Assembly (NCBI RefSeq): GCF_004216695.1
Contig: NZ_SGXC01000004.1
Location: forward strand, 186,001-250,000
Length of the DNA: 64,000 nt
Direction: 5' to 3'
From: Pigmentiphaga kullae
GTDB lineage: Bacteria > Pseudomonadota > Gammaproteobacteria > Burkholderiales > Burkholderiaceae_B
A program made the translations under genes and the position numbers. Below, piece by piece: positions 13,720 to 31,311 of this stretch; position 1 is the first letter of the stretch; the number at the start of each line of letters is the position of its first letter. A model generated the notes under the pieces. The model ran no database searches. It was not told the origin of the DNA and worked only from the letters and a program-made list of their open reading frames with translations.

Positions 13720-13913
13720 GATGTCTCCTGGTGGTCCGGCAGTGTCGTCCTGCCTGGAAGTGCATTGTGGGCAGGCGCGGCGCTGGCCGATACCGCTTTC
13801 GATGGACAGCTGTTATGCCGTTTTGATATGGCTGGTCTAGGGGTTTCCGCCGTCGGGCCGACTCAGGGCGATGGGCTATGCTTGACCCCCCGATTTTCAC
13901 GCACCTTCCGGAC

Positions 13914-14930: not shown

Positions 14931-15331
14931 GGTTGAGGGGGCGCCGTGATGTAGGTCCCGCGCCCGCTCGCGATCAGCTTGCCGTCCTGGAGCACCTGCG
15001 CCTCGCAAACCGAGAACTGGCGCCCATGCTTGATGACCTGCCCTCTTGCGAGCAGGTCGCCGGGCTTGGCCAGGCGATGGTAGTCGACCCGCAGGTCGAT
15101 GGTGGGCACGCCGTGGCCGATGCGGCGGACCAGCGCGAAGTCGGCGGCGAAGTCGATCAGCGAGGCCAGGATCCCGCCGTGCGTCTGCATCAGCCGGGTG
15201 CTGGCCACCCATTCCTCGCGCCAGGTGGCGCTTACCTCGATGCTGTCTTCTTCCAGCGCCAGCACCTTCAGGCCCAGCCACTGCAGGTAGGGGCCGCGCG
15301 AGACCAGCGCCTGCAATTCTTCCAGCGTCAT
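14927..15331 (-). CDS. PaaI-type hotdog-fold acyl-CoA thioesterase
   Basis: A 134-residue single-hotdog protein of the PaaI/YdiI thioesterase group. The family core Q-T-H-G-G-I-L-A-S-L-I-D-F-A-A-D near residue 50 contains the HGG motif and the catalytic Asp. TIDLRVDYHRLAKPGDLLARG follows. The ATG at 15331 is chosen for its AAGGAG ribosome-binding site; an in-frame ATG eight codons upstream is less likely. It is the last gene of an operon with an acyl-CoA ligase and an MDR oxidoreductase, where it would hydrolyse the CoA ester product or dead-end intermediates. Confidence 0.88.
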   Translation of the reverse strand: MTLEELQALVSRGPYLQWLGLKVLALEEDSIEVSATWREEWVASTRLMQTHGGILASLIDFAADFALVRRIGHGVPTIDLRVDYHRLAKPGDLLARGQVIKHGRQFSVCEAQVLQDGKLIASGRGTYITAPPQP

Positions 15332-15378
15332 GGGATGCTCCTTACCAGATGGCACGGCGGCCGGGCCGCCGTGCGGGG

Positions 15379-17897: not shown

Positions 17898-18233
17898 GGA
17901 TCCCCTGCGTGGTAAGTGGCGCACCGGTACAGCGCCCGATGCGCGGATGGCGAGGGAATCGTAAGAGTGGGCTTTGATCAGTACAAATTACTAGTTTTGG
18001 TGGATTGATCGTCGCGGTCGATAGATGCGCCGCGGCGGCCGTGGAAAGCGGCCGCCGGCGATCTATCGGCAAAAGTGAAGAATGGACAAAAACGAATTGT
18101 TTGTGCTGATGAAAGCGTCGAACTTAGGATGCCCTTGCCTGTCCGGCGTGCCGCCACGATGCGGAGCCGGCGGGCCATGCCGGTGCCTCGTTGCACTCGG
18201 TCCCTTGTTCATCCAACCAGACAGGGAGCATCC
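17898..18233. other. 336-base divergent intergenic region
   Basis: This gap separates the MDR oxidoreductase operon (minus) from the decarboxylase-hydantoinase operon (plus). It holds an A+T-rich patch around 17975-18000 (likely promoter area for the minus-strand operon) and a second one at 18070-18110 ahead of the plus-strand operon, with a long imperfect inverted repeat between them (listed separately). I could not assign a convincing -35/-10 pair on either strand. No small gene is supported. Confidence 0.5.
18019..18068. repeat. Long imperfect inverted repeat in the divergent promoter region
   Basis: The arms CGATAGAT-g-CGCCG-cg-GCGGCCG and CGGCCGC-CGGCG-ATCTATCG fold into a stem of about 20 pairs with small bulges and a loop TGGAAAG. 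No T-run follows on either strand, so it is not a classic terminator. It may be a regulator-binding region or a structured leader for either operon. Confidence 0.5.
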
Positions 18234-18782
18234 ATGTCGGCCGATTCCTCCGCCGAAAACTGGCCCGAGACCGTCGTACGCGCGCTCAAGGCCAACGACG
18301 TCAGGCTCGTGGCCTATGTGCCGGACAACGTCCTGGCGCCCTTGATCCGGCTGGTTCACGACGATCCGTATTTCTCGGTGGTATGCCCCGCCCGCGAAGA
18401 AGAGGCGGTGGGCATCGTGGCCGGCGCCTACATGGCGGGCACGCGCGGCATCGTCCTGATGCAGACCAGCGGCTTCGCCACCCTGCCCAACGTGCTGGCC
18501 TCGCTGCTCGCCCCCTACCGCATCCCCGTGCCGATGATGATTTCCGAGCGCGGCGCGATCGGCGACTTCCAGCTCGGCCAGGCCATGGTGTGCCGCACGA
18601 TGCGGCCGGTGCTGACCGCGCTGGGCATTCCGCACTTCGCCATCGAACGCCGCGACGACGTCGAGTTCGTCGTGGGCGGCATGATCGGCCAGGCCTACGC
18701 CACCCACGAGCCGGCGGCGGTGATCCTCTCGCCGCTGTTGACCAAGAAGGCTCACGCGCCCGCCGCCACGGCGGCGCGCTGA
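18234..18782 (+). CDS. ThDP-dependent decarboxylase, PYR-domain (alpha) subunit, sulfopyruvate/phosphonopyruvate decarboxylase type
   Basis: A 182-residue protein corresponding to the N-terminal pyrimidine-binding half of a thiamin-diphosphate decarboxylase, made as a separate chain as in ComD. The cofactor-activating Glu is in C-P-A-R-E-E-E-A at residues 51-58. The stretch LMQTSGFATLPNVLASL near residue 80 is typical of sulfopyruvate and phosphonopyruvate decarboxylases. The ATG at 18234 follows GGGAG. The beta-chain gene follows at once (TGATG junction). It opens the large operon and should decarboxylate a 2-oxoacid to an aldehyde in the cytoplasm; the substrate is not known. Confidence 0.85.
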   Translation: MSADSSAENWPETVVRALKANDVRLVAYVPDNVLAPLIRLVHDDPYFSVVCPAREEEAVGIVAGAYMAGTRGIVLMQTSGFATLPNVLASLLAPYRIPVPMMISERGAIGDFQLGQAMVCRTMRPVLTALGIPHFAIERRDDVEFVVGGMIGQAYATHEPAAVILSPLLTKKAHAPAATAAR

Positions 18783-18793
18783 TGGAGAAACGC

Positions 18794-19408
18794 ATGTCGA
18801 ACAGCGAACTGAGATCGATCTCCCGCGCCAGCGCCAAGGTCATGAATCGCTCCGACCTGACACGCAGGCTGGTGGCCCGGCTCGAACGGGAAGAAGCCGT
18901 CATCGGCGGCATAGGCAACAGCAACTTCGACCTGTGGGCCAGCGGCCAGCGGCCGCAGAATTTCTACATGCTGGGCAGCATGGGGCTGGCCATCCCCATC
19001 GCGCTCGGCGTGGCCATGGCCCAGCCGGGCCGCAAGGTGTTCGCGCTGGAAGGCGACGGCTCGCTGCTGATGGAGCTGGGCGCGCTGGGAACGGTCGCGG
19101 CTCACGCGCCGTGCAACCTGGCCATCGTGGTCTGGGACAACGGCATGTACCAGATAACGGGATCGCAGAAGACTCTGACGTCGTCCAAGGTGGATCTGGT
19201 CGGGATGGCGCGCGCGGCGGGTCTGGAGCGCAGTTCCTGGGCGCTGGACGAGGCGCATTTCGAATCCCTGGTCGGGCAGGCGCTGGACGGCGATGGGCCG
19301 TGGGTGATCGGCGCGCGCATCGACGGCGGGAAACCCGCCGGTACGACCGAACGCGATCCGGCCAGGATCCGCCTGCGTTTCATGCAGGGCCTGGGCGTGG
19401 CGGCCTGA
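18794..19408 (+). CDS. ThDP-dependent decarboxylase, PP-domain (beta) subunit
   Basis: A 204-residue partner of the preceding gene. It is the diphosphate-binding half: MLGSMGLAIPIALGVAMA, then G-D-G at residues 87-89 and the metal-ligating Asn in the V-W-D-N-G-M-Y stretch about 27 residues on, followed by ITGSQKT as in ComE and phosphonopyruvate decarboxylase. The ATG at 18794 is favoured because GGAG lies six bases upstream; an in-frame ATG at 18782 overlaps the alpha stop (TGATG) and would add four residues. Both chains are needed for activity. An aldehyde dehydrogenase gene follows, matching an oxoacid-to-aldehyde-to-acid sequence. Confidence 0.86.
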   Translation: MSNSELRSISRASAKVMNRSDLTRRLVARLEREEAVIGGIGNSNFDLWASGQRPQNFYMLGSMGLAIPIALGVAMAQPGRKVFALEGDGSLLMELGALGTVAAHAPCNLAIVVWDNGMYQITGSQKTLTSSKVDLVGMARAAGLERSSWALDEAHFESLVGQALDGDGPWVIGARIDGGKPAGTTERDPARIRLRFMQGLGVAA

Positions 19409-19420
19409 AGGAGGGAGACC

Positions 19421-20833
19421 ATGTCCAGACTGCTGATCGATGGCCGTTGGGTGGATGGCGTATCCTCCCAGCCGCTCACGGATAAATACGCGGGCCGCGT
19501 CTACGGCGAGATGGCCGTGGCGTCGAGCGCCCAGGTCGACGAGGCGATCGGCGCCGCCAGGCATGCCGCCGACACCATACGCATGGAGCCGTATGCGCGC
19601 TACCAGGCCCTGACCGGCGCGGCCCGGATCATCGAGAGCCGCATGCGGCAGTTCATCGACCTGCTGCGCGACGAGGCCGGCTTTACCCGCGCGGACAGCG
19701 AGAACGAGGTGCGGCGCTGCGCCCAGACCCTGGAGCTGTCGGGCGAAGAGGCCAAGCGGCTGGCCGGCGACCTGATCCCGATGACGGCGGGCCGCGGCGT
19801 CAAGGACCGGCTGGGGTTCACCGTGCGCATGCCGCTGGGAGTGATCTGCGCCATCACGCCATTCAATTCGCCGCTCAATACCCTGGCCCACAAGGTGGGG
19901 CCGGCATTGGCGGGCGGCAATGCGGTGATCATCAAACCCTCGACCTTCACGCCGCTGTCGGCGGTGGAGCTGTGCAAGGCCCTGATCGACGCCGGCGTGC
20001 CGGGCAAGTTGCTGACCCTGCTGCACGGGCCGGGCGGATCGCTCGGCCGGCAATTGCTGGCCGACCCCCGCATCGCGTATTACGCCTTCACCGGCAGCAC
20101 GCAGGTGGGGCGCGAGATCCAGCAGGCCGCGGGGCTGCGCGGCACCCAACTCGAACTGGGCAGCATCGCCAGCACTATCGTCTGCCACGACGCCGACATC
20201 GGGATGGCGATTCCCAAGATCATCAACGCGGGCTTCCGCAAGGCGGGGCAGGTCTGCACCTCCGTGCAGCGGCTGTTCGTCGACCGGCGCATCGCCCCGG
20301 ACTTCGTGCCGCGCCTGGTGGAGGCGGTGCGCGCCACGACGTTCGGCGATCCGGCCGATCCGCGTACCGTCATCGGGCCGATGATCAGCGAGCACCACGC
20401 CCGGCGCGCGGCATCGTGGGTGGACGAGGCCGTGAGCCAGGGCGCGCGCCTGCTGACGGGAGGCAAGCTGCACGGCAGGGTGTTCGAGCCGACGATCCTG
20501 CGGAATGTGCGCAGCGACATGCGCGTGGTGTGTGAGGAAATTTTCGCGCCGGTGCTGTCCATCATCGAATTCGACGACATCGCCGAGGCGGTGGCCGGCG
20601 CCAATGCCAGCGATTTCGGCCTGGCGGCGGGCCTGTTCACGGCCGACCTGCACACGGCCTTGAACACCGCGCTGGCCCTGCGCTTCGGTGGCGTGCACAT
20701 CAACGAAGCTTCCAGCGCGCGGGTCGATGCCATGCCCTTCGGCGGCGTCAAGGATAGCGGCCACGGCCGCGAAGGGCCTGCCTACGCGATCCGGGAAATG
20801 ACCGAGGAGCGCCTGATCACCATCGCCTACTAG
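19421..20833 (+). CDS. NAD(P)-dependent aldehyde dehydrogenase
   Basis: A 470-residue aldehyde dehydrogenase. Catalytic Glu is in Q-L-E-L-G-S near residue 245 and the nucleophilic Cys in GQVCTS near residue 279. TPFNSPLNTLAHKVGPALAGGN holds the oxyanion Asn, and FTGSTQVG binds the cofactor. The LELGS in place of the usual LELGG is a mild departure seen in some subfamilies. AGGGAG precedes the ATG. Placed directly after the decarboxylase subunits, it probably oxidises their aldehyde product. Confidence 0.92.
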   Translation: MSRLLIDGRWVDGVSSQPLTDKYAGRVYGEMAVASSAQVDEAIGAARHAADTIRMEPYARYQALTGAARIIESRMRQFIDLLRDEAGFTRADSENEVRRCAQTLELSGEEAKRLAGDLIPMTAGRGVKDRLGFTVRMPLGVICAITPFNSPLNTLAHKVGPALAGGNAVIIKPSTFTPLSAVELCKALIDAGVPGKLLTLLHGPGGSLGRQLLADPRIAYYAFTGSTQVGREIQQAAGLRGTQLELGSIASTIVCHDADIGMAIPKIINAGFRKAGQVCTSVQRLFVDRRIAPDFVPRLVEAVRATTFGDPADPRTVIGPMISEHHARRAASWVDEAVSQGARLLTGGKLHGRVFEPTILRNVRSDMRVVCEEIFAPVLSIIEFDDIAEAVAGANASDFGLAAGLFTADLHTALNTALALRFGGVHINEASSARVDAMPFGGVKDSGHGREGPAYAIREMTEERLITIAY

Positions 20834-20850
20834 CCGGACCCGCGGGGCCG

Positions 20851-22995
20851 GTGTCGATTCAAACTGAATGGGATGAAGAGAGCGTGAACACATCTGCTGC
20901 AGGCTCCAGCACCTTGCGCGTCGCCGTGGATATCGGCGGGACCTTTACGGACGGCGTGGCGACCCTGCATCCGCAGGGCCGGATCTGGGTCGGCAAGACG
21001 CCGACCACGCCGTCGGACCCGGGCGAGGCGGTCTCCACCGTCATCGGCGACCTGTTGCGGCAGGTCGCGGTCTCGATGGGCGGGGCATCGCCGCAACTGG
21101 GCGAGGTGCTGCACGGCACGACGCTGGTCACCAATACGCTGATCGAACGCAAGGGCGCCGCCACCGGCCTGATCACCACCGCCGGCATGCGCGATGCGCT
21201 CGACATCGGGCGCGAGTGGCGCTATGACCCCTACGACCTGGACATCGTGTTGCCCCAGCCGCTGGTGCCGCCCGAGTGCCGGGCCGAAGTGGCCGAGCGG
21301 CTGGGCGCGCATGGCGACGTGCTCGAAGCGCTGGACGACGCGGATGTCGCGGCGGCGATCCAGGCGCTGGCGGACGCGGGCGTGACCTCGGTCGCGGTGT
21401 CGCTGCTGCATGCCTACATGGACGACAGCCATGAACGCCGCATCGAGGCGGCCATCAAGGCGCGTCTGCCCGAGATGGCGGTGTCTACCTCGTCGTCGCT
21501 GGCGCGCGAGATCGGCGAGTTCGAACGGACCTCCACCGCCACGGCCAACGCCTACGTCAAGCCGGTGGTGGCCGACTACCTGCGCCAGCTCGAGGCGCGT
21601 ATTGGCGACATCCGCCGCGGCATTCCGCTGCGCGTGATGGTGTCCAGCGGGGGATTCACTTCCGCCCGCGCGGGCGCCGAGTCGCCCATCATGCTGCTGG
21701 AGTCCGGGCCCGCCGCGGGGGTGCTCTCGGCGCTGAACACCGCGCGCCAGAACGACGTGGACCAGGTGCTGGCCTTCGACATGGGCGGCACCACGGCCAA
21801 GGCCTGCGTCGCCATCGATGGCGAGGCGCCGGTTGCGCACAGCTTCGAATGCGCGCGCGTGGAGCGGTTCAAGCGCGGGTCGGGGCTGCCCATCCTCATT
21901 CCCAGCATCGAGCTGATCGAGATCGGCGCCGGCGGCGGTTCGATCGCCTACTGCAACCGGCTGGGCCTGCTCAACGTCGGCCCGGAGTCGTCGGGATCGG
22001 TGCCCGGACCGGCGTGCTACGGCCGCGGCGGCGCGCAGCCGACCGTGACCGACGCCGACCTGCTGCTGGGCTATCTGAATCCGGGCAATTTCCTGGGCGG
22101 CGAGATGGCGCTGGACCTGGACGCGACCCGCGCTGCCATGGCCCGGCTGGGCGAGCAATTGAAGATGCCGGCCGAGAGCGTGGCCTGGGGCATCTGCAAC
22201 ATGGTCAACGAGAACATGGCAAGCGCCGCGCGCATCCACATCGCCGAGACCGGCCACGATCCGCGCGAGCTGTCCATGGTGGCGACGGGCGGCGCGGGGC
22301 CGGTGCACGCGGTGGACGTGGCGCGCAAGCTGCGCATTCCGCGCGTGCTGGTGCCGATCGCAGCGGGCGCCGGGTCGTGCCTGGGCATGCTGGCGGCGCC
22401 GGCGCGGGTGGACCGTGCCTGGTCCAGCCCGCAGTTGCTGGCCGAGGTCGACTGGAGGCAGATCGCGCGCGTGCTGGGCCAGCTCAAGCAGGAAGGGGAG
22501 GCCGAGCTGGCTTCGGTGGGAGCCCGCGATGTCGAGTGGCGCATCGGCGCCGACATGCGCTACTACGGCCAGGGGGCCGAGGTGCCTGTCTCGATTCCCT
22601 ATGCCGAGGTCGACGCCGCCACCGGCGCGGGCGTGCTCGCCGCATTCGAAGAGCAATACCAGCGCCTGTACGGCCGCCTGGTTCCGAATGCCCGGCCGCA
22701 GGTCACGACCTGGCGCCTGGTCGGCAAGGCTCGCACCGAGGGCAGCCATTTCGAATGGGGCGATGCCCGCACCCGTGGCGGCGCACCGGCCGGCTCGCGG
22801 CCCATCTACCTGCCGCTGCGGCGGGCGTACGGCGAGGTGCCGGTGCACGACCGCTATTCGCTGGCGGCGGGAACCACGCTGCAGGGACCGCTGATCCTGG
22901 AGGAACGCGAATCCACCCTTGTCGTGGCGGTGGCGGCCGATGTGGCCGTGCTTGCGGACCTGACCATATCCGTGACCATCAAGGAATTCGAATAA
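20851..22995 (+). CDS. hyuA: Hydantoinase/oxoprolinase family protein, A subunit
   Basis: A 714-residue ATP-dependent cyclic-amide hydrolase subunit (HyuA, N-methylhydantoinase A, 5-oxoprolinase N-half). The actin-like ATPase signature V-A-V-D-I-G-G-T-F-T-D is near residue 25, LHGTTLVTNTLIERKG near residue 90, the second phosphate motif LAFDMGGTTAKACVA near residue 308, and VPGPACYGRGGAQPTVTDADL follows. Two GTG starts are possible (20851, 20884). It hydrolyses a lactam or hydantoin ring with ATP together with the B subunit encoded next (TAATG junction). Related acetone/acetophenone carboxylases share this fold, so ring opening is the likeliest but not the only role. Confidence 0.9.
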   Translation: MSIQTEWDEESVNTSAAGSSTLRVAVDIGGTFTDGVATLHPQGRIWVGKTPTTPSDPGEAVSTVIGDLLRQVAVSMGGASPQLGEVLHGTTLVTNTLIERKGAATGLITTAGMRDALDIGREWRYDPYDLDIVLPQPLVPPECRAEVAERLGAHGDVLEALDDADVAAAIQALADAGVTSVAVSLLHAYMDDSHERRIEAAIKARLPEMAVSTSSSLAREIGEFERTSTATANAYVKPVVADYLRQLEARIGDIRRGIPLRVMVSSGGFTSARAGAESPIMLLESGPAAGVLSALNTARQNDVDQVLAFDMGGTTAKACVAIDGEAPVAHSFECARVERFKRGSGLPILIPSIELIEIGAGGGSIAYCNRLGLLNVGPESSGSVPGPACYGRGGAQPTVTDADLLLGYLNPGNFLGGEMALDLDATRAAMARLGEQLKMPAESVAWGICNMVNENMASAARIHIAETGHDPRELSMVATGGAGPVHAVDVARKLRIPRVLVPIAAGAGSCLGMLAAPARVDRAWSSPQLLAEVDWRQIARVLGQLKQEGEAELASVGARDVEWRIGADMRYYGQGAEVPVSIPYAEVDAATGAGVLAAFEEQYQRLYGRLVPNARPQVTTWRLVGKARTEGSHFEWGDARTRGGAPAGSRPIYLPLRRAYGEVPVHDRYSLAAGTTLQGPLILEERESTLVVAVAADVAVLADLTISVTIKEFE

Positions 22996-24578
22996 TGGAC
23001 AAGACTTCCTCGCGGCGGCGTCCGGCCGCCCGGCAGACGAGCTTCGACGCGGTCGAACTGGAGATCCTGTGGAAGCGGCTCATCAGCGTCGTCGACGAGG
23101 CCGCCGCCGCGTTCGTGCGCACCTGCTTTTCCACGCTGGTCAGGGATGGCAACGATTTCGCCATCGTGCTGACCGACGCCCAGGGACGCTCGCTGGCGCA
23201 ATCGGCCATGAGCCTGCCCGGTTTCATCGGCTGCCTGCCGGCGACGGTGCGCCATTTCCTGGACAAGTACCCGGCCGATACCATCAAGCCGGGCGACGTC
23301 TTCATCACCAATGATCCGTGGAAGGGCTCGGGCCACGTGCACGACGTCACCACGGTCACGCCCATCTTTTTCGAGGGTCGGCTGGTCGCCTTCGGCGCGG
23401 TGGTCTCGCACCTGCCAGACATCGGCGGCAAGCTGCGCAGCAACAGCAGCCGAGAGATCTATGAAGAGGGCCTGCAGATCCCGTTGATGAAGCTGCTCGA
23501 CGACGGCAGGCCCAACGAAGTGCTGATCGAGATGATCACCCAGAACATACGCGTGCCGGAGCAGGGCATGGGCGACATCTGGGCGCAGGTGGCGGCGTGT
23601 CGCATGATGGCCGATCGCCTGCAGGGACCGCTGGCGGCGGTGGACCTCGAGGCGCTGGGCGCGCAGGTGCGGCGGCGCTCGGAAGATGCCATGCGCGAGG
23701 CCATCCGCGCCTTGCCCGACGGCGTCTATCGCTCGACCGTGCAGCACGACGGCTTCGAAGAACCCATCGTCATCCGCTGCCAGCTGACCGTGGCCGGCGA
23801 CCGCATCGACATCGACTACGCCGGCACGTCGGCGCAGCTGCCGCGTGCCCTGAACGTGGTGCCGATCTATGTGTTCGCCTACACCGTGTACGGCCTGAAG
23901 GCCTTGCTGTGCGCGGATATCCCGAACAACGAGGGCAGCTTCCTGCCGATCACGACGCAGGCGCCGGCCGGCTCGCTGCTCAATCCGACCTATCCGGCGG
24001 CCTCGGGCGGCCGCAGCGCCATCGGCCACCTGCTGCCGGGCGCCGTCTTCAAGGCGCTGGCCGAGGTGCTGCCCGAGAAGGTCTGGGCCTCGGGGTCGCC
24101 GAATTCGTCGATGACCATGTCGGGCGAATACCGGGGCAAGCGCTACGCCGTCGTGAACTTCCTGAATGCGGGGCAGGGCGCCAGCGCGCGCCGGCCCGGG
24201 TTCTCGGCGTTGAGCTTCCCGGCCAACCTGGGCAATACCCCGGTCGAGATGATGGAGACCCTGGCTCCGATCCGGGTCCTGCGGCGCGAGATCCGTCGCG
24301 GCAGCGGCGGCGAAGGGCGCCAGCCGGGCGGCTGCGGCATCCGCTTCGAGTACGAGTTGCTGCCCGATGCGCCGGATGCGGCGGCATCGTTCCTGATGAC
24401 CCAGCTCAAGTCCGCGCCAGCCGGGCTGGCCGGCGGCGGCCCCGGCCAGCCCGGGCGCCTGGCCATCAACGGCCAGGCCGTCGATCCCACCGAGCCGCGC
24501 GTATTGCGCGCCGGCGACCGCGTGTTGATGGAAACCGCCGGCGGCGGCGCCTATGGACCACTGGAGAAAAAAGCATGA
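22995..24578 (+). CDS. hyuB: Hydantoinase/oxoprolinase family protein, B subunit
   Basis: A 527-residue HyuB-type subunit. Family marks are FDAVELEILWKRLISVVDEA at the start, PGDVFITNDPWKGSGHVHDV near residue 100, VVSHLPDIGG with the metal-binding-like His/Asp, and the late GGxGxRFEYE-like stretch QPGGCGIRFEYELL. Its start overlaps the hyuA stop by one base (TAATG) and its own stop overlaps the next start (ATGA), so translation is coupled along the operon. With HyuA it forms the ATP-dependent amidohydrolase complex in the cytoplasm. Confidence 0.9.
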   Translation: MDKTSSRRRPAARQTSFDAVELEILWKRLISVVDEAAAAFVRTCFSTLVRDGNDFAIVLTDAQGRSLAQSAMSLPGFIGCLPATVRHFLDKYPADTIKPGDVFITNDPWKGSGHVHDVTTVTPIFFEGRLVAFGAVVSHLPDIGGKLRSNSSREIYEEGLQIPLMKLLDDGRPNEVLIEMITQNIRVPEQGMGDIWAQVAACRMMADRLQGPLAAVDLEALGAQVRRRSEDAMREAIRALPDGVYRSTVQHDGFEEPIVIRCQLTVAGDRIDIDYAGTSAQLPRALNVVPIYVFAYTVYGLKALLCADIPNNEGSFLPITTQAPAGSLLNPTYPAASGGRSAIGHLLPGAVFKALAEVLPEKVWASGSPNSSMTMSGEYRGKRYAVVNFLNAGQGASARRPGFSALSFPANLGNTPVEMMETLAPIRVLRREIRRGSGGEGRQPGGCGIRFEYELLPDAPDAAASFLMTQLKSAPAGLAGGGPGQPGRLAINGQAVDPTEPRVLRAGDRVLMETAGGGAYGPLEKKA

Positions 24579-24925
24579 GCGAAATGATACGTATCGACCA
24601 GAGCGCGCGGCGCAGCCGGGCGCTGGTCCACAACGGCATCGCCTACCTGTCGGGCCAGGTGCCCGATGACCGCACGCAGGACGTCGCCGGCCAGACCCGG
24701 CAGGTTCTGGCCAAGGTGGACGAGTTGCTGGCGCAGGCCGGAACCGACAAGAGCCGGGTGTTGAGCGCGCAGATCTGGCTGAAGACGATGGACGATTTCG
24801 CGGCGATGAACGAGGTGTGGGATGCCTGGGTGGAGCCAGGGCGGACCCCCACCCGTTGTTGCGGCAAGGTCGAACTGAATGACCCGGCATGCCGGGTGGA
24901 AGTAACGATGGTGGCCGCTGTTTGA
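24575..24925 (+). CDS. RidA (YjgF/YER057c/UK114) family protein
   Basis: A 116-residue RidA-fold protein: short, with LVHNGIAYLSGQVPDD near the start and CRVEVTMVAAV at the end. The Arg that binds the substrate carboxylate in true RidA (R105 in C-x-V/I-E) appears as C-R-V-E-V, so imine/enamine deaminase activity is plausible. Such proteins hydrolyse reactive 2-aminoacrylate-type enamines; pathway-specific members are common in operons for N-containing compounds. Coupled to hyuB by ATGA. Confidence 0.88.
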   Translation: MSEMIRIDQSARRSRALVHNGIAYLSGQVPDDRTQDVAGQTRQVLAKVDELLAQAGTDKSRVLSAQIWLKTMDDFAAMNEVWDAWVEPGRTPTRCCGKVELNDPACRVEVTMVAAV

Positions 24926-24984
24926 GGCTGCTTGAAGGACGGAGGAGGCGACATCCCGTTGTTCCCTAAACACGTGAGGCTGAG

Positions 24985-26013
24985 ATGATCGAGAGAAGCT
25001 CTGGCAGGTGTTGTAAGGTGAAGTCGCCCTCCGCGCGGGCCGGGTGGGCCGTGGCCGGGATGGCCATGGCATGCGCGGCCTGGGCGGCGCCCTCCGCGGC
25101 AGTGGCCGACGAGTTCCCCAGCAAGCCCATCCGGCTGGTGATCCCGTATGCGACCGGCGGCGTATCGGATTCGATCGGACGGGTGCTGGCCAAGTCCATG
25201 ACCGATGTGCTGGGACAATCGGTGGTCGCCGAAAACCGCGGCGGCGGAGGCGGCACCATAGGCGCCGCGGTGGTGGCCGCCGCGCCGCCCGACGGCTACA
25301 CCATCCTTCTGACCAGTCCGCCCATGGTCGCGGTAGCGCCCGTGCTGCTGAAGAACCTTTCCTACCGCGCGATCGACGATTTCACCGCGATCGGCACGCT
25401 GGTGACCACGCCCAACATTCTGGCGGTGAATAACGACCTGCCGGTGAAGTCCCTGGCCGACATGGCCAGCTATGCCAAGGGCGAAGGCCGGAACAAGCTG
25501 AGCTTCGCCTCGGCCGGGCCGGGCAGCACCGGCCACCTGTCGGGCCAGATCCTGCAGAACGCCATGAACATCGCCATGACCCACGTGCCGTACAAGTCGT
25601 CGGGGCTGGCCTTTCCCGACGTGATCTCGGGACGGGTGTCGATGGTGTTCGATTCGCTGCCGTCCACCATAGGCTACGTGCGCGCGGGGCAAGTGCGTCC
25701 GCTGGTGGTGATGTCCAGGGAACGGTCCTCGATATTGCCGGACGTGCCCACCGCCATCGAAGCGGGCTACCCCTCGGCCACGATGAACTTCTGGATGGGC
25801 ATAGAAGGGCCGGCCAACATGCCACCGGCCGTCGTGGAGAAGCTCAATGTCGCCATCCACAAGGCGGTGCAGTCGCCGGAGATGCGCAAGCAGCTCGCCA
25901 CGCTGGGAGCGGAACCCTATCTGATCAGTTCCACGGAGTTCGCGCAGTTGCGTCGCCAGGATGCCGCGACTTACCGTAAGCTCGTCAAGGACATGGGACT
26001 GGAGCGCGACTGA
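24985..26013 (+). CDS. Bug-family periplasmic solute receptor
   Basis: A 342-residue Bug receptor. The signal region is at about residues 20-41 (A-rich, cleavage near V-A-D-E). FPSKPIRLVIPYATGGVSDSIGRVL, VVAENRGGGGGTIGAAVV and ILPDVPTAIEAGYPS are the family signatures; the usual KPGAGG is changed to RGGGGG. It sits inside the operon between ridA and the molybdenum hydroxylase genes, and its stop overlaps the next start, so it is probably the dedicated binding protein for the pathway substrate. Confidence 0.92.
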   Translation: MIERSSGRCCKVKSPSARAGWAVAGMAMACAAWAAPSAAVADEFPSKPIRLVIPYATGGVSDSIGRVLAKSMTDVLGQSVVAENRGGGGGTIGAAVVAAAPPDGYTILLTSPPMVAVAPVLLKNLSYRAIDDFTAIGTLVTTPNILAVNNDLPVKSLADMASYAKGEGRNKLSFASAGPGSTGHLSGQILQNAMNIAMTHVPYKSSGLAFPDVISGRVSMVFDSLPSTIGYVRAGQVRPLVVMSRERSSILPDVPTAIEAGYPSATMNFWMGIEGPANMPPAVVEKLNVAIHKAVQSPEMRKQLATLGAEPYLISSTEFAQLRRQDAATYRKLVKDMGLERD

Positions 26014-28424
26014 TGACCGACAAGGATACGAGCGGCTCGTCCGCGGCGACGGAAAAGGGAGTCGGGGCGCGCCTGCGCCGCCGGGAGGACTGGCGCCACC
26101 TGCGGGGGCGCGGGCAGTTCGTCGGCGACATCCGCGTACCGGGCATGCTGGAGGTCGCGTTCGTTCGCAGCTCCAGCGCCCATGGCATCGTGCGCGACAT
26201 CGTCGTTCCCGACGAATACCGCGACCAGGTATTCACCGCCCGGGACTTCCCCGGCGTCAAGCCCATCGTGGCGGTTCCCAAGGTCGACGGCTTCAAGTAT
26301 TCCGAGCATCCGGCGCTGGCCACCGACCGCGTCCGCTTCGCCGGCGAGCCGGTGGCGATGGCCATCGCGCCCACGCGGGCCATGGCCGAAGATATCGCCG
26401 ATTCGGTGTTCGTCGATATCGAGGAATTGCCGGCCGTGGTCGACACCGTGGCGGCCACGCTGCCCGGCGCTCCCCTGATCCGCGAGGAGTGGGGCGACAA
26501 CGTGTACGTGGCGCGCGACGCCGAGTTCGGCGACCTGGCCGCCGCGCGGCGCGAGGCCGCGGTGGTGATCGAGCGCGAGTACCGGATGAACCGCCAGTCC
26601 GCCGTCCCGCTGGAAGGGCGAGCCATCCTGGCGGTATGGGACGACCGGCTGGACGAGCTGTGCGTCTACACGGGCAGCCAGTCACCGCACCAGACGCGGG
26701 TGGGCATGGCGCAGGTGCTGGGTATCGAGGAGCGGCGGCTGCGGCTCATCTCGCCCGACATGGGCGGCGGTTTCGGCGCCAAGCGCGTGCTGTATCCGGA
26801 AGAGCTGATGGTGGCGGCGCTGGCGCTCAAGCTCAGGCGGCCGGTCCGCTGGCTGGACGACAAGCGGGAGCATCTGCTGAGCGCCATCCATTGCCGCGAA
26901 CATCACCACAAGGTGAAGGCCTACGCCGACGCGCGCGGCCGTATCCTGGGCCTGGACGTGGAGGTCTACGTGGATGCGGGGGCCTATTCGCACTGGCCCA
27001 ACAGCCCCTTCATGGAGACGGGCATGGTGGCCAAGAACATTCCCGGTCCCTACGACGTGCCCAGTTACCGGTGCCGCAGCTATACCGTGGCCACCAACAA
27101 GTCTCCCATCGGCGCGTACCGGGGCGTGGCGCGTCCGGCGGCCTGTTTCACCATCGAGCGGACGATCGACGAGATCGCCCACGCCGTGGGCCGCGAGCCC
27201 TGGGAGGTCAGGGTGGAGAACATGGTGCCCGAGCACGCCATGCCGTACCGGTCCATCACCAACCTGGTCTTCGACACCGGCAACTACGGCGAATCGGTGT
27301 GGCGCGCCGCCGGGCTGATCGAACTGGCCGGGGTGCGGGCGCGCCAGAAGCAGGGCGAGGCCGATGGCCGGCTGATCGGCGTGGGCTTTGCCGCGTTCAC
27401 CGAGCAGACCGCGCACGGCTGCGGGGAATGGGTCTCGCGCGGCACACCGGTGATTCCGGGCTACGAGTCGGCCACGGCGCGGATGATGCCCGATGGATCG
27501 CTGATGCTGATGGTGGGTATCGTGTCGCATGGGCAGGGCCTGGAGACGGCCTTGTCTCAGGTCGCCCATCAGGAACTGAGCATAGATCCGGTCCACGTGT
27601 CGGTCCGGCATGGCGACACGCAGGTCTCGCCGTTCGGCATGGGTACCTTCGCTTCGCGCAGCATGGTCATGTCGGGAGGCGCGGTGGCCAAGGCGTGCCG
27701 GTTGCTGCGCGCCAAGATGGCGGCCATCGCCGCGTACGCCATGAAGTGCGAGGCCGAGGCGCTGCGCTTCGAGGAGGGGCGCGTGCACGGCCCCGAAGGG
27801 TCGATGGGCTTCGACGAGATCGGCCGCATCGCGCATCTGCGGCAGGAGGCGCTGCCGCCGGGCATGGAGCCCCTGCTGGACGTGACGACGACCTACGAGC
27901 CGCAGGTCGACACCGGGGTGTTCACCTATGCGACGCATGCGGCGGTGGTGGCCGTGGACCCGGACACCGGCAAGGTCGACCTGCTGGACTACGCCTGCGT
28001 CGAGGACTGCGGCACCGTGGTCAATCCCATGATCGTCGATGGCCAGATCATCGGCGGCATCGTGCAGGGCATAGGCACGGCGCTGTACGAAGAGATTCCC
28101 TACGACGAGAACGGGCAGCCGCTGGCCACGACGCTGGGCGATTACCTGATGCCGGGCGCGCCCGAGGCGCCGCCCATCAGGATCGGCCACATGGTGACGC
28201 CCACGCCGCACACCGAATACGGCATGAAGGGCATGGGCGAGGGCGGCGCGATCCCGCCGCCGGCCGCGATCGCCAACGCGGTGCGCGACGCGCTGCGCGG
28301 CCTGGGCGCCGAGTTGAACGAAACGCCCATGACGCCGCAGCGCGTGCGGGCGGCCATCGTCGCGGCCGCCGCGGGCACGCCGCGCGCGGCCCGGGCGCGC
28401 CGGGAAGGCGAGGTGGTGCGATGA
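26013..28424 (+). CDS. Xanthine dehydrogenase/CO dehydrogenase family molybdopterin-binding large subunit
   Basis: An 803-residue molybdenum hydroxylase large subunit, normal length. GFGAKR near residue 253 lies in the pterin-binding DMGGGFGAKR. The active-site loop reads A-Y-R-G-V-A-R near residue 369, i.e. the form-II pattern and not the AYxCSFR of true CO dehydrogenase. The conserved catalytic Glu is in GMKGMGEGG near residue 740. Such enzymes insert an oxygen from water next to a ring nitrogen or into an aldehyde. Together with the FAD and 2Fe-2S subunits encoded next it makes a complete three-subunit hydroxylase. Confidence 0.93.
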   Translation: MTDKDTSGSSAATEKGVGARLRRREDWRHLRGRGQFVGDIRVPGMLEVAFVRSSSAHGIVRDIVVPDEYRDQVFTARDFPGVKPIVAVPKVDGFKYSEHPALATDRVRFAGEPVAMAIAPTRAMAEDIADSVFVDIEELPAVVDTVAATLPGAPLIREEWGDNVYVARDAEFGDLAAARREAAVVIEREYRMNRQSAVPLEGRAILAVWDDRLDELCVYTGSQSPHQTRVGMAQVLGIEERRLRLISPDMGGGFGAKRVLYPEELMVAALALKLRRPVRWLDDKREHLLSAIHCREHHHKVKAYADARGRILGLDVEVYVDAGAYSHWPNSPFMETGMVAKNIPGPYDVPSYRCRSYTVATNKSPIGAYRGVARPAACFTIERTIDEIAHAVGREPWEVRVENMVPEHAMPYRSITNLVFDTGNYGESVWRAAGLIELAGVRARQKQGEADGRLIGVGFAAFTEQTAHGCGEWVSRGTPVIPGYESATARMMPDGSLMLMVGIVSHGQGLETALSQVAHQELSIDPVHVSVRHGDTQVSPFGMGTFASRSMVMSGGAVAKACRLLRAKMAAIAAYAMKCEAEALRFEEGRVHGPEGSMGFDEIGRIAHLRQEALPPGMEPLLDVTTTYEPQVDTGVFTYATHAAVVAVDPDTGKVDLLDYACVEDCGTVVNPMIVDGQIIGGIVQGIGTALYEEIPYDENGQPLATTLGDYLMPGAPEAPPIRIGHMVTPTPHTEYGMKGMGEGGAIPPPAAIANAVRDALRGLGAELNETPMTPQRVRAAIVAAAAGTPRAARARREGEVVR

Positions 28425-29254
28425 AGGCCGCGCCGTTTTCCTATCGCCGCGCCGCGACCCTGGACGAGGCGCTGGCCGCCGGCGGCGAGACCTCCCGCTT
28501 CCTGGCCGGCGGCCAGTCGCTGGTGCCGATGATGAACCTGCGCCTGACGCTGGCGGACACCATGATCGACATCTCGGGACTGGCCGAGTTGCGGCGCAGC
28601 GGGCGCGAGGGCGACCGCGTGTTCATCGGCGCGGGCGTCACGCACGCCATGATCGAGGACGGCAGGATCGAGGACCCGTCGCGCGGCTATCTGCGGCACG
28701 TGGCCGGCGGCATTGCCTTTCGTTCGGTGCGCAATCGCGGCACGCTGGGCGGCAGCCTGGCCCATGCCGACCCCGCGGCGGACTGGCCCACGGCGCTGCT
28801 GGCCCTGGGTGCCGAGGCCGTCGTCCGCGGCGCCGGCGGCGAGCGCCGGCTGCCGCTCACGCAATTCCAGCTCGGGTTGATGGAGACCGCGCTGCGGCCG
28901 GACGAGATCCTGGTTGGCGTGACCGTGCCGGTGCTGTCCGATCTTGCCCGGTGGAGCTATCGGAAATTCTGCCGGAAATCGGGCGAGTTCGCCCATTCCA
29001 TCGCGGCCGCCGTATGCGATCCGCGGCGCGAACTGGCCGAGGTGGTGCTGGGCGCGGCGGCGGACAAGCCGTGCCGGCTGGGGCGCGCGTCGGCGCTGCT
29101 GGCCGACGGGGCGCGGGTCGATCCGCAACAGCTCGGGCAGGTGGTGGACGAGGACGTGCGGGACGCCACGGGGCTGGCCGCGTCGTCCTACGAATTCCAT
29201 CTGCATCGGACCATGGTCGTGCGCGCCTGCGCGCACTTGCGGGAGCAGACATGA
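28421..29254 (+). CDS. Molybdenum hydroxylase FAD-binding middle subunit (CoxM/XdhB type)
   Basis: A 277-residue FAD-binding subunit. FLAGGQSLVPMMNLRL near residue 27 and VRNRGTLGGSLAHADPAADWP near residue 103 are the two FAD-contact motifs of the PCMH-type fold. The shorter-than-usual C-terminal domain still carries FCRKSGEFAHS. Its ATG overlaps the stop of the large-subunit gene by four bases. It passes electrons from the iron-sulfur subunit to the final acceptor. Confidence 0.92.
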   Translation: MKAAPFSYRRAATLDEALAAGGETSRFLAGGQSLVPMMNLRLTLADTMIDISGLAELRRSGREGDRVFIGAGVTHAMIEDGRIEDPSRGYLRHVAGGIAFRSVRNRGTLGGSLAHADPAADWPTALLALGAEAVVRGAGGERRLPLTQFQLGLMETALRPDEILVGVTVPVLSDLARWSYRKFCRKSGEFAHSIAAAVCDPRRELAEVVLGAAADKPCRLGRASALLADGARVDPQQLGQVVDEDVRDATGLAASSYEFHLHRTMVVRACAHLREQT

Positions 29255-29721
29255 AGCTTGCATTGACAGTGAACGGCGCGCCGGTGGCGGGCGAGATCGA
29301 GGACCGCATGACGCTGGCCGATTTCGTCCGCGACCACTGCGGGCTGACCGGTACCCATCTGGGCTGCGAGCACGGCGTGTGCGGCGCCTGTTCGGTGCTG
29401 GTGGACGGCGAGCCCGTGCGGGCATGCATCACGCTGGCGGCCGCGGTCGAGGGCAGGGCGGTGACGACCATCGAAGGCTTCGAGGACGATGCCGCGATGG
29501 CGGTCATCCGCGAATGCTTTGCCGAGGCCCATGGGCTGCAATGCGGCTTCTGCACGCCCGGCATGGTCATCATGGTGCGCGATGCGCTGGCGCGCGGCTG
29601 CTGCGGATCGGAACGCCAGATCCGCGACCAGTTGGCCGGCAACCTGTGTCGCTGCACCGGCTATGCCGGCATCGTCAAGGCCACCGAAATGGCGCGCGAC
29701 CGGCTGGCCAAGGCCGGTTGA
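29251..29721 (+). CDS. Molybdenum hydroxylase 2Fe-2S small subunit (CoxS type)
   Basis: A 156-residue iron-sulfur subunit with both clusters. The plant-ferredoxin-like set is G-C-E-H-G-V-C-G-A-C plus a later Cys in V-R-A-C. The second, helical cluster has C-G-F-C-T-P-G-M and C-R-C-T-G-Y. All eight ligands are present. ATGA overlap with the middle subunit. An extra Cys pair, ARGCCGSER, lies between the second-cluster motifs and is unusual but is not a cluster ligand. Confidence 0.94.
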   Translation: MKLALTVNGAPVAGEIEDRMTLADFVRDHCGLTGTHLGCEHGVCGACSVLVDGEPVRACITLAAAVEGRAVTTIEGFEDDAAMAVIRECFAEAHGLQCGFCTPGMVIMVRDALARGCCGSERQIRDQLAGNLCRCTGYAGIVKATEMARDRLAKAG

Positions 29722-29751
29722 ATCCGAAACTCCTTCAAGGACATTCCATTC

Positions 29752-30201
29752 ATGAACATCACCGGAGAGCGGCAACTGGCCGTCGATCGGCAGGCCGCCT
29801 GGGAAAGCCTGTTCGATCCTGCCATCCTGCAGCAGTGCATACCCGGCTGCGTATCGGTCGAACGCGAGGACGAGACGCGCTACAGGGCCGTGGTCGTGAT
29901 GGCCATCGGCCCCGTCAAGGCGCGGTTTTCAGGGACCTTCGCCATCGCCGATGCGCAGGCGCCAGGGCGCTGCCGGCTGGTGTTCGAGGGGAGCGGCGGG
30001 GCGGCGGGACTGGCGAAGGGTGGCGCCGATGTGGTGCTGGACCCCGCTGACGGCGGTACGCGCCTGGCCTATGATGCCCAGGCTCAGGTCGCAGGCAAAT
30101 TGGCCCAGGTGGGAGCACGATTGATCGAGGGAGTCGCCAGGAAGCTCGCGGGAGAATTCTTCGATCGCTTCGAGACGGCGGTCACGGCGGGCCAGACCTG
30201 A
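29752..30201 (+). CDS. CoxG-like SRPBCC family protein
   Basis: A 149-residue START/SRPBCC-fold protein of the CO dehydrogenase subunit G group. It shows the typical N-terminus with R-Q-A-A-W-E-S-L-F-D-P-A-I-L-Q-Q-C-I-P-G-C and the C-terminal helix GARLIEGVARKLAGEFF. CoxG-like proteins are membrane recruiters or substrate/quinone chaperones for molybdenum hydroxylases. AAGGAC precedes the ATG by about eight bases. It is the last enzyme-associated gene of the operon, 30 bases after the 2Fe-2S subunit. Confidence 0.88.
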   Translation: MNITGERQLAVDRQAAWESLFDPAILQQCIPGCVSVEREDETRYRAVVVMAIGPVKARFSGTFAIADAQAPGRCRLVFEGSGGAAGLAKGGADVVLDPADGGTRLAYDAQAQVAGKLAQVGARLIEGVARKLAGEFFDRFETAVTAGQT

Positions 30202-30294
30202 TCCGCCCACGCCGCACGGCGGGAGCCCGGCGCGAAAACCGCGCTGCAACACGTCCAGGGTTGTTCGAGCGGTGTCTTTCGAAGGCTCGCAATC

Positions 30295-31311
30295 ATGAGA
30301 AAGCTTTCCCTGCGTCACCTGCGGGGTTTCGTCGCCATTGCCGAAACCGGTTCGTTCACGCTGGCGGCCGCGCGGCTGTTCCATACGCAATCGTCCCTGA
30401 CTGCCACCATCCAGCAATTCGAGGAGGCGGTCGGACTGAAACTGTTCGACCGCACGACGCGGCGCGTGGTCCTGACCGACGATGCCGTCCGTTTCAAGGC
30501 CGTGGCCGAGCGCATCCTGCGGGACTTCGACAACGCCATCGGGGATCTCCAGGCCATCGCCAAGAGCCAGCGGGGGCACGTGCGCATCGCCGCCGCGCCG
30601 TCGATGATCATGCACATCCTGACCCCGGCCCTGGCGGCGTTTCGGCGGGCCTATCCCGCCATCACCGTGTCGGTGCGCGACGGCGGATCGGACAAGATCG
30701 AGCGCGCCGTGCTCGACGGCGAGGTCGATTTCGGGCTGTGCAGCCGCCTCAACAACTATCCCGAACTCAATTACGTGCCCATGCTGGCCGACCCGTTCGG
30801 CGTGATCTTCCCCAACGATCACCCCCTGGCCTGTACCAATGGTCCGATCAAGTGGTCGGAACTGGCGCAGTACGACTACATCGGGCTGACGGGGGACACC
30901 GGCATCGGCGCCTTCCTGGAGAACTATCCGGAGCTGGGCCTGCACGAACGGGCCCAGTTGCACGACAACGTGTCCAGCACCCATTCCCTTTACGCCATGC
31001 TGGGCCTGGGCGGGAAAATCTCGGTGGTGCCCGCGCTGGCCGCCCAGGCGGGACCGCTGAACGAGCTGAAGTTCCGGGAGTTGTGCGAACCCCGCATTTC
31101 GCGGGAAATATGCCTGGCCACCAGGCACCTTCGTTCTTTTTCGGTCAATACCCGCCGTATTCTCGAAGTGCTGATGACCACCATCCAGGATGCCGGCAAC
31201 CTGAGCGGCGTCGAGGTCATCCTGGACCAACGCTGGTCCTCGCCTGAGACCTGGGAGAGCGCCCCCGCACGTGGTGGACAGCCCGACGCGCGGCAGTTGA
31301 TGGAGCTTTAG
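30295..31311 (+). CDS. LysR-type transcriptional regulator at the end of the hydroxylase operon
   Basis: A 338-residue LysR regulator, slightly long because of a C-terminal tail after about residue 300. The winged helix occupies residues 1-62 (LRHLRGFVAIAETGSFTLAAARLFHTQSSLT). It lies 93 bases downstream of coxG on the same strand and is the best candidate controller of the operon starting at 18234, though it is not divergent from it, which is atypical for LysR genes. Its stop overlaps the convergent hydroxyacid dehydrogenase gene by four bases. Confidence 0.9.
   Translation: MRKLSLRHLRGFVAIAETGSFTLAAARLFHTQSSLTATIQQFEEAVGLKLFDRTTRRVVLTDDAVRFKAVAERILRDFDNAIGDLQAIAKSQRGHVRIAAAPSMIMHILTPALAAFRRAYPAITVSVRDGGSDKIERAVLDGEVDFGLCSRLNNYPELNYVPMLADPFGVIFPNDHPLACTNGPIKWSELAQYDYIGLTGDTGIGAFLENYPELGLHERAQLHDNVSSTHSLYAMLGLGGKISVVPALAAQAGPLNELKFRELCEPRISREICLATRHLRSFSVNTRRILEVLMTTIQDAGNLSGVEVILDQRWSSPETWESAPARGGQPDARQLMEL

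Follow-up and report, generated by a model that had tools for sequence, protein, structure and literature searches.

The 64,000-nucleotide stretch of Pigmentiphaga kullae DNA that was analysed here (contig NZ_SGXC01000004.1, positions 186,001 to 250,000; hereafter the window) carries a cluster of putative catabolic genes. A first reading of the letters alone (the original prediction) had described it as one operon with a split thiamine diphosphate (ThDP) decarboxylase, an aldehyde dehydrogenase, HyuAB, RidA, a Bug receptor, a molybdenum hydroxylase, CoxG and LysR. All of the genes that it named are present where it had placed them, as eleven same-strand genes over 12.0 kb and lysR, which also lies on the forward strand. 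Based on a comparison with related loci, we propose that the cluster belongs to a regulon for the complete breakdown of a pyridine carboxylic acid, a pathway type to which we would give an even chance. The genes are as follows:

18234..18782, forward strand: thdpA, PYR-domain subunit of a ThDP enzyme (2-oxoacid decarboxylase alpha); TIGR03845 and TPP_enzyme_N scores, both below cut-off
18794..19408 (alternative start 18782), forward strand: thdpB, PP-domain subunit of a ThDP enzyme; NF004813 over cut-off
19421..20833, forward strand: aldh, aldehyde dehydrogenase; Pfam Aldedh 466 bits
20851..22995 (start may be 20926), forward strand: hyuA, ATP-binding subunit of an ATP-dependent lactamase; Pfam Hydantoinase_A 266 bits
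22995..24578, forward strand: hyuB, metal subunit of an ATP-dependent lactamase; Pfam Hydantoinase_B 469 bits
24575..24925, forward strand: ridA, Rid-family enamine/imine deaminase, nearest Rid2; matches to PDB structures
24985..26013, forward strand: bug, Bug/TctC periplasmic binding protein; Pfam TctC 224 bits
26013..28424, forward strand: moL, molybdenum hydroxylase large subunit; MoCoBD_1/2, GEGGA loop
28421..29254, forward strand: moM, molybdenum hydroxylase FAD subunit; Pfam FAD_binding_5 142 bits
29251..29721, forward strand: moS, molybdenum hydroxylase [2Fe-2S] subunit; Pfam Fer2_2 84.5 bits
29752..30201, forward strand: coxG, CoxG-like protein; Pfam COXG 113 bits
30295..31311, forward strand: lysR, LysR-type regulator; generic LysR matches only, below cut-offs

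The claim that starts overlap at most junctions held for six of the ten (thdpA/thdpB, hyuA/hyuB, hyuB/ridA, bug/moL, moL/moM and moM/moS), while the other four have gaps of 12, 17, 59 and 30 bp. Moreover, the TGATG start of thdpB at 18782 is doubtful, since the start at 18794, which has GGAG ahead of it, is favoured. A scan of 17800-31500 found two terminator-like sites (5.3 in shuffles), one within lysR and one on the opposite strand within hyuB, and none between genes, which makes transcription of the eleven genes as a single unit plausible. The same scan found a single promoter-like site, no more than chance would give (1.4 in shuffles); it is at 30047-30075 within coxG and points to lysR, and there was none ahead of thdpA.

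The conserved core and the divergent CoA module

Relatives were collected by a scan for the ThDP beta subunit with one genome per species, which gave 67 loci (numbered with an L below), and searches with HyuB added more. The comparison sets comprised 39 loci with both hyuA and hyuB, 14 of these also with ridA, and 49 thdpAB loci without hyuAB. The presence thresholds were our own (e.g., 40% identity for RidA and 45% for the aminotransferase), and weaker homologues were scored as absent. L008 and L009 were left out, as they lie on the same contigs as L106 and L107, of which L107 stops at a contig edge. Genes were called with a home-made caller; for L037 and L109, in which it called no genes, and for L067 and L118, in which it called few, we relied on tblastn.

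The original prediction had beforehand made its claim depend on conservation of the gene order in relatives, and the six-gene core thdpA-thdpB-aldh-hyuA-hyuB-ridA proved to be colinear and on one strand in all 14 ridA loci, which come from both alpha- and betaproteobacteria. Four of them belong to the genus of the window, one to another genus of its family and three to Paraburkholderia, with single loci in Mesorhizobium, Nitratireductor, Ancylobacter, Tardiphaga, Hoeflea and Roseisalinus. Their HyuB proteins form one clade in the HyuB tree (support 100/100), so that the counts reported here are not independent events and the Fisher p-values overstate independence. The spread is patchy: a HyuB that was at least 90% identical was found in three of ten other genomes of the genus, and a HyuB at E <= 1e-220 in 11 of the 399 genomes of the order, the window's own included, the remaining 10 being outside the ridA clade. 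In a sample of 398 genomes from the phylum, 1e-180 was passed by the HyuB of the window's own genome only.

Judged by co-occurrence, the unit is larger than the eleven genes and extends beyond 18234 to a divergent operon at 14927-17885, which is preceded by a pair of palindromes:

16902..17885, reverse strand: MDR-family NAD(P)H reductase, quinone/enoyl reductase type; Pfam ADH_zinc_N
15379..16905, reverse strand: AMP-forming acyl-CoA synthetase (CoA ligase); Pfam AMP-binding 258 bits
14927..15331, reverse strand: hotdog-fold thioesterase (4HBT), last of three genes in the divergent module; 4HBT 42.3 bits, TIGR00369 73.7 vs a cut-off of 36.6
17982..18000, reverse strand: operator-like palindrome, copy facing the MDR operon; score 25.5, outside the matrix training
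18087..18105, forward strand: operator-like palindrome, copy facing thdpA; leave-one-out score 27.3, conserved ahead of thdpA in relatives

Of the 14 ridA loci, nine have the CoA ligase together with the core, compared with none of the 49 thdpAB loci without hyuAB. Within the fetched stretches, the thioesterase stands beside the core in nine ridA loci and the MDR reductase in eight, and all three genes also lie just past the fetched edge in Hoeflea (L149) and Paraburkholderia xenovorans LB400 (L160). For the reductase, the top NCBIfam model was TIGR02824, followed by crotonyl-/acryloyl-CoA reductase models among others, all under cut-off.

A palindrome near CAAAAACTAGTTGTTTGTG is found upstream of thdpA in most ridA loci. 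A pattern designed around both copies of the window was searched for in its 6.2 Mb genome and, with up to two mismatches allowed, matched twice, both times in this intergenic region (control 0). The sites before both operons, together with these being the only two genome matches, support a single regulon. A matrix trained on nine upstream sites also detected untrained sites ahead of the reductase operon in the window (17982), L024 and L149 (LB400 scores 15.5), ahead of molybdenum hydroxylase operons of two types (L024, 20.2; L149, 19.0; L150, 15.0; L017, bug-iorAB, 23.8) and before receptor-like genes (L039, L041 and L151). For the window's own type of molybdenum hydroxylase, the link to the operator comes only from the shared operon and from sites that are weak or distant (L018, 11.6; L154, 15.2). 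Weaker sites were also seen before thdpA in L018 (16.5) and L027 (18.7), between dhpD and bug in LB400 (two more, 14.6 and 13.2) and ahead of tcuA of Mesorhizobium (L148, 12.9). The 14 ridA loci, which span 329 kb, contained 25 matches of at least 15; the four same-genus loci accounted for 8 of these and the training sites for 9, with one match belonging to both groups. For comparison, 421 kb of reversed ridA-type loci had 3 such matches, the 50 thdpAB-only loci (729 kb) had 20, of which 11 were in the AT-rich L037 and one in L073, the 23 sister loci (425 kb) had 8, and 86 kb of others had 1. Outside the ridA group, the motif stands before thdpA at L073:3125 (25.8, strong) and L025:9381 (16.6), and the regulon may thus predate the RidA branch. 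A lysR relative of at least 42% identity is present in 11 of the 14 ridA loci, and LysR is the probable owner of the palindrome, which would make them a candidate regulator-operator pair. On chromosome 2 of LB400, the reductase module, a molybdenum hydroxylase, the tricarballylate-utilisation enzymes TcuAB and the core all lie within about 28 kb. As far as sequence comparison can tell, the grouping is not accidental, and the gene set is conserved and apparently co-regulated.

Proposed ring hydroxylation, ring opening and tricarballylate outlet

A molybdenum hydroxylase was found in 11 of the 14 ridA loci compared with 0 of the 12 hyuAB loci that have an aminotransferase, and it occurs in three types. 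The three-subunit type of the window is shared with Mesorhizobium and Tardiphaga, a second three-subunit type is present in Ancylobacter, Hoeflea and Roseisalinus, and a third, with a cytochrome c gene, in Paraburkholderia. Different molybdenum enzymes were thus recruited repeatedly beside one core, from which we infer that the pathway needs this reaction. The nearest solved relative of the window's moL is quinoline 2-oxidoreductase; for the other two types, these are 6-hydroxypseudooxynicotine dehydrogenase and the large subunit of an aldehyde dehydrogenase. The three-subunit domains and the active-site glutamate loop GEGGAIP/A, present in five of five moL proteins, place the enzyme in the xanthine oxidase family. 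Despite the resemblance of CoxG and the large subunit to Cox proteins, form I CO dehydrogenase, whose active-site loop is AYXCSFR, was rejected, as all five moL proteins have AYRGVARP or PYRGVARP. In L013, L015 and L026, thdpAB directly follows a molybdenum-enzyme-like gene (approximately 765 aa, 27-28% identical to moL) and an 81-aa open reading frame.

The catalytic motifs of the putative lactamase are conserved. The phosphate motif of HyuA reads VDIGGTFTDG in 29 of 34 aligned proteins and DIGGTFTD in all 34, which corresponds to the DxGGTxTD motif of subunit A in the passages of PMC8453981 on caprolactamase. In HyuB, the Asp of NDF/NDY is present in 34/34, the His and Asp of GHVHD in 30/30 listed and the His of SHLPD in 33/33 listed proteins (34 aligned). 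Assignment of these residues to D41, H99, D102 and H124 of CapB was by motif, CapB itself being outside the alignment, and the same passages describe the metal-ligand blocks as essential in caprolactamase (PMC8453981). The nearest solved relative of HyuA is an N-methylhydantoinase and the second is 6yra. Caprolactamase itself (NF050156/NF050157) was rejected, with 454.3 and 154.6 bits vs a cut-off of 1000.

Among the 39 hyuAB loci, ridA was found in 14, a class I aminotransferase in 12, both in none and neither in 13. An old-yellow-enzyme reductase was present in 6 of the 12 aminotransferase loci and in none of the 14 with ridA; thdpAB and aldh also occur in five of the aminotransferase loci. 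An aminotransferase in the place of RidA suggests that the nitrogen sits on a carboxylate-bearing carbon that becomes a 2-oxoacid. The product of lactam opening is therefore probably an amino or imino acid, which would be converted to a 2-oxoacid, decarboxylated and oxidised. We infer that an oxidised ring would yield an enamine or imine for the Rid protein and a reduced ring an amino acid for the aminotransferase, both leading to a 2-oxoacid. Two sister clusters, L117:2118-12720 and L109, carry HyuAB, ThdpAB, an aminotransferase, an aldehyde dehydrogenase and a PhzF-family isomerase, with an old yellow enzyme in L117; no RidA and no molybdenum hydroxylase were found in either, and they probably represent a parallel pathway for a reducible lactam.

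The protein that had been labelled RidA is a Rid-family deaminase, with the conserved arginine (P-[TA]-R) in 14/14 aligned sequences, but its nearest assigned relatives lie elsewhere in the family. Against PDB entries it scored 100 bits with PA5083, 99 with PSPTO_0102, 101 with the uncharacterised 3k12 and 30 with Escherichia coli YjgF. PA5083 and PSPTO_0102 are placed in Rid2 in the sections of PMC5619798 on Rid subfamilies, which also state that iminoarginine is deaminated by Rid2 and Rid3 but not by RidA and Rid1. By its nearest assigned structures, the window's protein is thus closest to Rid2.

For the split decarboxylase, ThdpA scored 115.1 bits for TIGR03845 (cut-off 147.95) and 24.6 for TPP_enzyme_N, just short of 26.8, and its motif reads REEE in 18/19 and EEE in 19/19 aligned sequences. 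ThdpB scored 340.4 bits for NF004813 (PRK06163, function unnamed), over the equivalog cut-off of 240, and has GDG in 19/19. Sulfopyruvate decarboxylase was rejected, since TIGR03846 (146.5 vs 221.5) was below its cut-off as TIGR03845 was. The cysteine block GQVCTS of the aldehyde dehydrogenase is present in 18 of 19 aligned sequences, the remaining one having a gap.

The outlet of the pathway is probably the conversion of tricarballylate to cis-aconitate by TcuAB. In the relatives, TcuA scored 703, 776 and 784 bits against an equivalog cut-off of 369, and TcuB 470 and 420 for TIGR02484 (cut-off 246.6) and 697 and 471 for NF011607 (cut-off 524, passed by one). In Tardiphaga, tcuA begins 23 bp behind ridA, and TcuA and TcuB are over their cut-offs both there and in LB400. 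In a whole-genome search of 12 genomes, eight of them with the ridA-type core, there were one to three TcuA copies per genome, and TcuA lay in or near the cluster in six of the eight: within the fetched locus in LB400, P. heleia and Tardiphaga, and just outside it, as confirmed by fetching, in Mesorhizobium, Hoeflea and Roseisalinus. We estimate from genome sizes that, at these copy numbers, such proximity would arise by chance with a probability of about 1-2% in any one genome. The P. piptadeniae TcuA shares a contig with the cluster, at a distance of roughly 30 kb. Among the four genomes without the ridA-type core, TcuA is in the thdpAB locus of three and on another contig in one (L025). In the window's genome, TcuAB (G000:C1) adjoins a gene that, from the start of its protein, we take to be aconitase-B-like.

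ThdpAB also adjoins TcuAB without HyuAB in 6 of the 49 loci. In L032, L033 and L043, the order TcuA-TcuB-ThdpA-ThdpB-aldehyde dehydrogenase is followed by an MmgE/PrpD-like gene, and the Curvibacter locus L032:4361-14449 reads SDR-TcuAB-ThdpAB-aldehyde dehydrogenase-PrpD-like, the SDR being assigned by its sequence start only. Loci of this type would tie ThdpAB itself to tricarballylate/aconitate chemistry. A prpD gene was found in 0/14 ridA loci vs 10/49 thdpAB-only loci (p = 0.10) and thus seems to be part of other ThdpAB contexts. In 11 Rhizobiales loci among L040-L068 (e.g., L049:7114-9280), ThdpAB is divergent from a Bug-like receptor and an enolase-superfamily-like protein (sequence start only), which suggests another use of the same decarboxylase.

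The proposed route and rival explanations

In the proposed route, the acid would be imported by the Bug receptor, or by other transporters in relatives, and hydroxylated at C6 by the molybdenum hydroxylase to a 2-pyridone lactam. The enzymes of the divergent operon (CoA ligase, MDR reductase and thioesterase) would then remove one ring double bond via a CoA ester, after which HyuAB would open the lactam with ATP to an alpha-enamino acid and the Rid protein would hydrolyse the imine to 4-carboxy-2-oxoadipate, a 2-oxoacid, and ammonia. ThdpAB would decarboxylate this 2-oxoacid to a semialdehyde, which the aldehyde dehydrogenase would oxidise to tricarballylate, and TcuAB would make cis-aconitate for the citric acid cycle. 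LysR would act on both divergent operons through the conserved palindrome. As regards the chemistry of the original prediction, the formation of a lactam by the molybdenum hydroxylase, its opening by HyuAB and the parts given to RidA, the decarboxylase and the dehydrogenase are backed by the comparison, but the scheme was incomplete, as the divergent operon and the outlet were left out. Creatinine, purines, hydantoins and simple pyrrolidones, which had been listed as candidate substrates, look unlikely from the chemistry required; for the first three, the ureido product would need no RidA or aminotransferase together with a 2-oxoacid decarboxylase.

When the atoms are traced through the scheme, a C6-hydroxylated picolinate-type acid should give glutarate, with any extra ring carboxylates retained. 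The 2,3- and 2,5-diacids were set aside, as they would give propane-1,1,3-tricarboxylate, and picolinate would give glutarate; among the acids traced, only the 2,4-isomer leads to tricarballylate. Because a carboxylate at C4 would give tricarballylate and isonicotinate, which would lead to it as well, would need no ThdpAB, pyridine-2,4-dicarboxylate (2,4-PDCA) is our best single guess for the substrate, although a tentative one. Hydroxylation at C6 would turn it into the aza-analogue of 2-pyrone-4,6-dicarboxylate, a lignin intermediate. According to the passages of PMC12417764, PMC13254512 and PMC7814577 on its formation, 2,4-PDCA arises from the protocatechuate 4,5-cleavage product and ammonium, slowly without an enzyme. 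In full, the reading is that of a complete 2,4-PDCA regulon in which an ATP-dependent lactamase, and not oxygen, opens the ring by hydrolysis, the carbon exits as tricarballylate, and the sister clusters with an aminotransferase and an old yellow enzyme form a parallel branch acting on reduced or reducible lactams; we would put its probability at roughly 0.3.

Several observations weigh against this reading. The reduction step is assumed, and unreduced chemistry would lead to aconitate and leave TcuAB idle. TcuA lies on other contigs in the window's own genome and on another contig in Ancylobacter, and within the fetched stretches tcuA/B were not enriched (4/14 ridA loci vs 6/49 other thdpAB loci, p = 0.21), so that the TcuAB argument rests on the rarity of TcuAB in genomes. 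Every ridA locus has thdpAB, and the role of ThdpAB therefore cannot be separated there. In the HyuB tree, the loci with an aminotransferase do not group together (eight changes) and some of them have a distant HyuB, so that the exchange with RidA was not one clean swap in one lineage. Relatives of the window-type molybdenum hydroxylase (about 50% identity) also occur away from the cluster in several genomes, and L108 has the core but no hydroxylase of this class within its fetched stretch. LigA was over its cut-off in none of 13 genomes, with weaker matches in five (100.5 vs 108.6 bits in the window's genome); protocatechuate 4,5-dioxygenase is at most a possible internal source of 2,4-PDCA. 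Finally, a 4,5-dihydroxyphthalate-decarboxylase-like gene, for which the route has no use, is in the molybdenum hydroxylase operon or near the cluster in five of eight genomes (in P. heleia by contig position), and no homologue above 41% identity was found in the remaining genomes searched, the window's genus included. With this gene, the pathway may also reach an acid that carries one further carboxylate; alternatively, the hosts may differ in substrate. Copies in or near molybdenum hydroxylase operons of the regulon are at:

L024:956-1942: 4,5-dihydroxyphthalate-decarboxylase-like gene
L149:2053-3036: 4,5-dihydroxyphthalate-decarboxylase-like gene
L150:18004-18990: 4,5-dihydroxyphthalate-decarboxylase-like gene
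L160:9359-10342: 4,5-dihydroxyphthalate-decarboxylase-like gene

The rival that survives best takes picolinate as the substrate: ring opening of 6-hydroxypicolinate would give an aminomuconate-type acid, which deamination would turn into a 2-oxoadipate-type acid, and decarboxylation and oxidation of the latter would yield glutarate or glutaconate for activation by the CoA ligase. It uses all of the core genes, ThdpAB included, gives the CoA ligase a simple role and is in line with an acyl-CoA dehydrogenase near L108. It can also draw on 2-aminomuconate deaminase, which is a Rid-type protein. The relevant part of PMC6742747 describes a 2-aminomuconate deaminase. However, TcuAB in or near six of eight clusters would be left unexplained, and a different pic gene cluster is described for picolinate in the corresponding part of PMC10142695; we regard this substrate as unlikely. 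The variable types and positions of the molybdenum hydroxylases, their homologues elsewhere in the genomes and the absence of such an enzyme from view in L108 would instead suit two neighbouring pathways, in which the core takes a pre-formed external lactam and the molybdenum hydroxylase and CoxG oxidise an unrelated compound. Against this stand the presence of the hydroxylase in 11 of 14 loci despite its three types and the strong operator-like sites before the operons of two of them, even if the window's own type has only weak or distant ones, and we consider such a split somewhat less likely still.

In an isonicotinate-type pathway, 2-hydroxyisonicotinate would be reduced and opened, and RidA and the aldehyde dehydrogenase would then yield tricarballylate directly. 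This would account for the molybdenum hydroxylase, the CoA module, HyuAB, RidA, the aldehyde dehydrogenase and TcuAB, and a CoA-dependent isonicotinate route reportedly exists in a mycobacterium. Nevertheless, such a pathway leaves ThdpAB, the first pair of the core in 14/14 loci, without a substrate, which makes it improbable. Alternatively, a five-membered ring, such as a pyrrole-2-carboxylate bearing an acetate side chain or some other lactam, would be hydroxylated, opened and converted through 3-formylglutarate to tricarballylate. This would satisfy HyuAB, Rid, ThdpAB, the aldehyde dehydrogenase and TcuAB and would fit an N-methylhydantoinase, which opens such a ring, as the nearest solved relative of HyuA. 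However, we know of no common natural substrate for it, and the solved relatives closest to two of the three molybdenum hydroxylase types act, by their entry names and known chemistry, on six-membered nitrogen rings or derivatives, so that it too seems very doubtful. The 2,4-PDCA route remains our preferred reading.

Neighbouring genes and known systems

The cluster is bracketed by two D-2-hydroxyacid dehydrogenase paralogues that are 85% identical, at 10932-11867 (reverse strand) and next to lysR:

31308..32246, reverse strand: D-2-hydroxyacid dehydrogenase, convergent neighbour of uncertain membership; Pfam 2-Hacid_dh_C

At an identity of at least 50%, this dehydrogenase was found, among the ridA loci, in those of the same genus only, and the pair is possibly a duplication that bracketed the insertion. 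Further Bug/TctC-like receptors in the window were detected by tblastn at 12718-13719, 13878-14930 and 37982-38956 and by their sequence start only at 60370-61356 and 62848-63828. A hydantoin-5-propionate amidohydrolase that passes its cut-off (ErtD; L020:2948-4297) adjoins the cluster of Nitratireductor indicus, along with an M20 peptidase and a TRAP transporter; the three are probably an ergothioneine-utilisation neighbour.

In the open-access literature, which leaves subscription journals mostly outside, neither this gene set nor a pathway for 2,4-PDCA was described among the matches listed, and the LB400 review PMC12117332 contains no words beginning with pyridin-, nicotin- or tricarball-. 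The enzyme classes are known; their combination, order and outlet appear to be new. If the proposal is true, roles would be gained at once for the NF004813 ThDP subunit, the HyuAB clade, the Rid clade and LysR with its operator, TcuAB would gain an upstream source, and pyridine-ring opening an ATP-driven hydrolytic route. If the substrate is 2,4-PDCA, a plastic monomer that is now made from lignin, the cluster would show producers which bacteria can remove it. The prediction can be tested by single-gene deletions in P. xenovorans LB400.

One close comparison is with anaerobic indole-3-acetate degradation in Aromatoleum, in which IaaCE opens a lactam made by a molybdenum hydroxylase; that route is not known to involve a Rid protein, a ThDP decarboxylase or an outlet through tricarballylate, and its product is an aromatic amine. 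IaaCE is, like HyuAB, a hydantoinase-like hydrolase and is listed among the caprolactamase homologues in a section of PMC8453981. Caprolactamase CapAB, 5-oxoprolinase and N-methylhydantoinase share with HyuAB the two-subunit architecture, the ATP motif and the metal-ligand blocks, as far as the passages of PMC8453981 on this family go, but HyuAB scores under the caprolactamase cut-offs and its operon partners differ. Similarly, the sulfopyruvate and phosphonopyruvate decarboxylases are relatives of both split ThDP subunits, whereas ThdpAB falls below their cut-offs and has its beta subunit in the unnamed family NF004813. Tricarballylate utilisation relies on the same TcuAB enzymes that lie inside the clusters of the relatives, here beside a ring-degrading pathway and not free-standing. 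The picolinate (pic) and nicotinate pathways share the entry by a molybdenum hydroxylase beside the ring nitrogen and continue with a second hydroxylation and an oxygenolytic ring cleavage, in place of which we propose a hydrolytic, ATP-driven opening.

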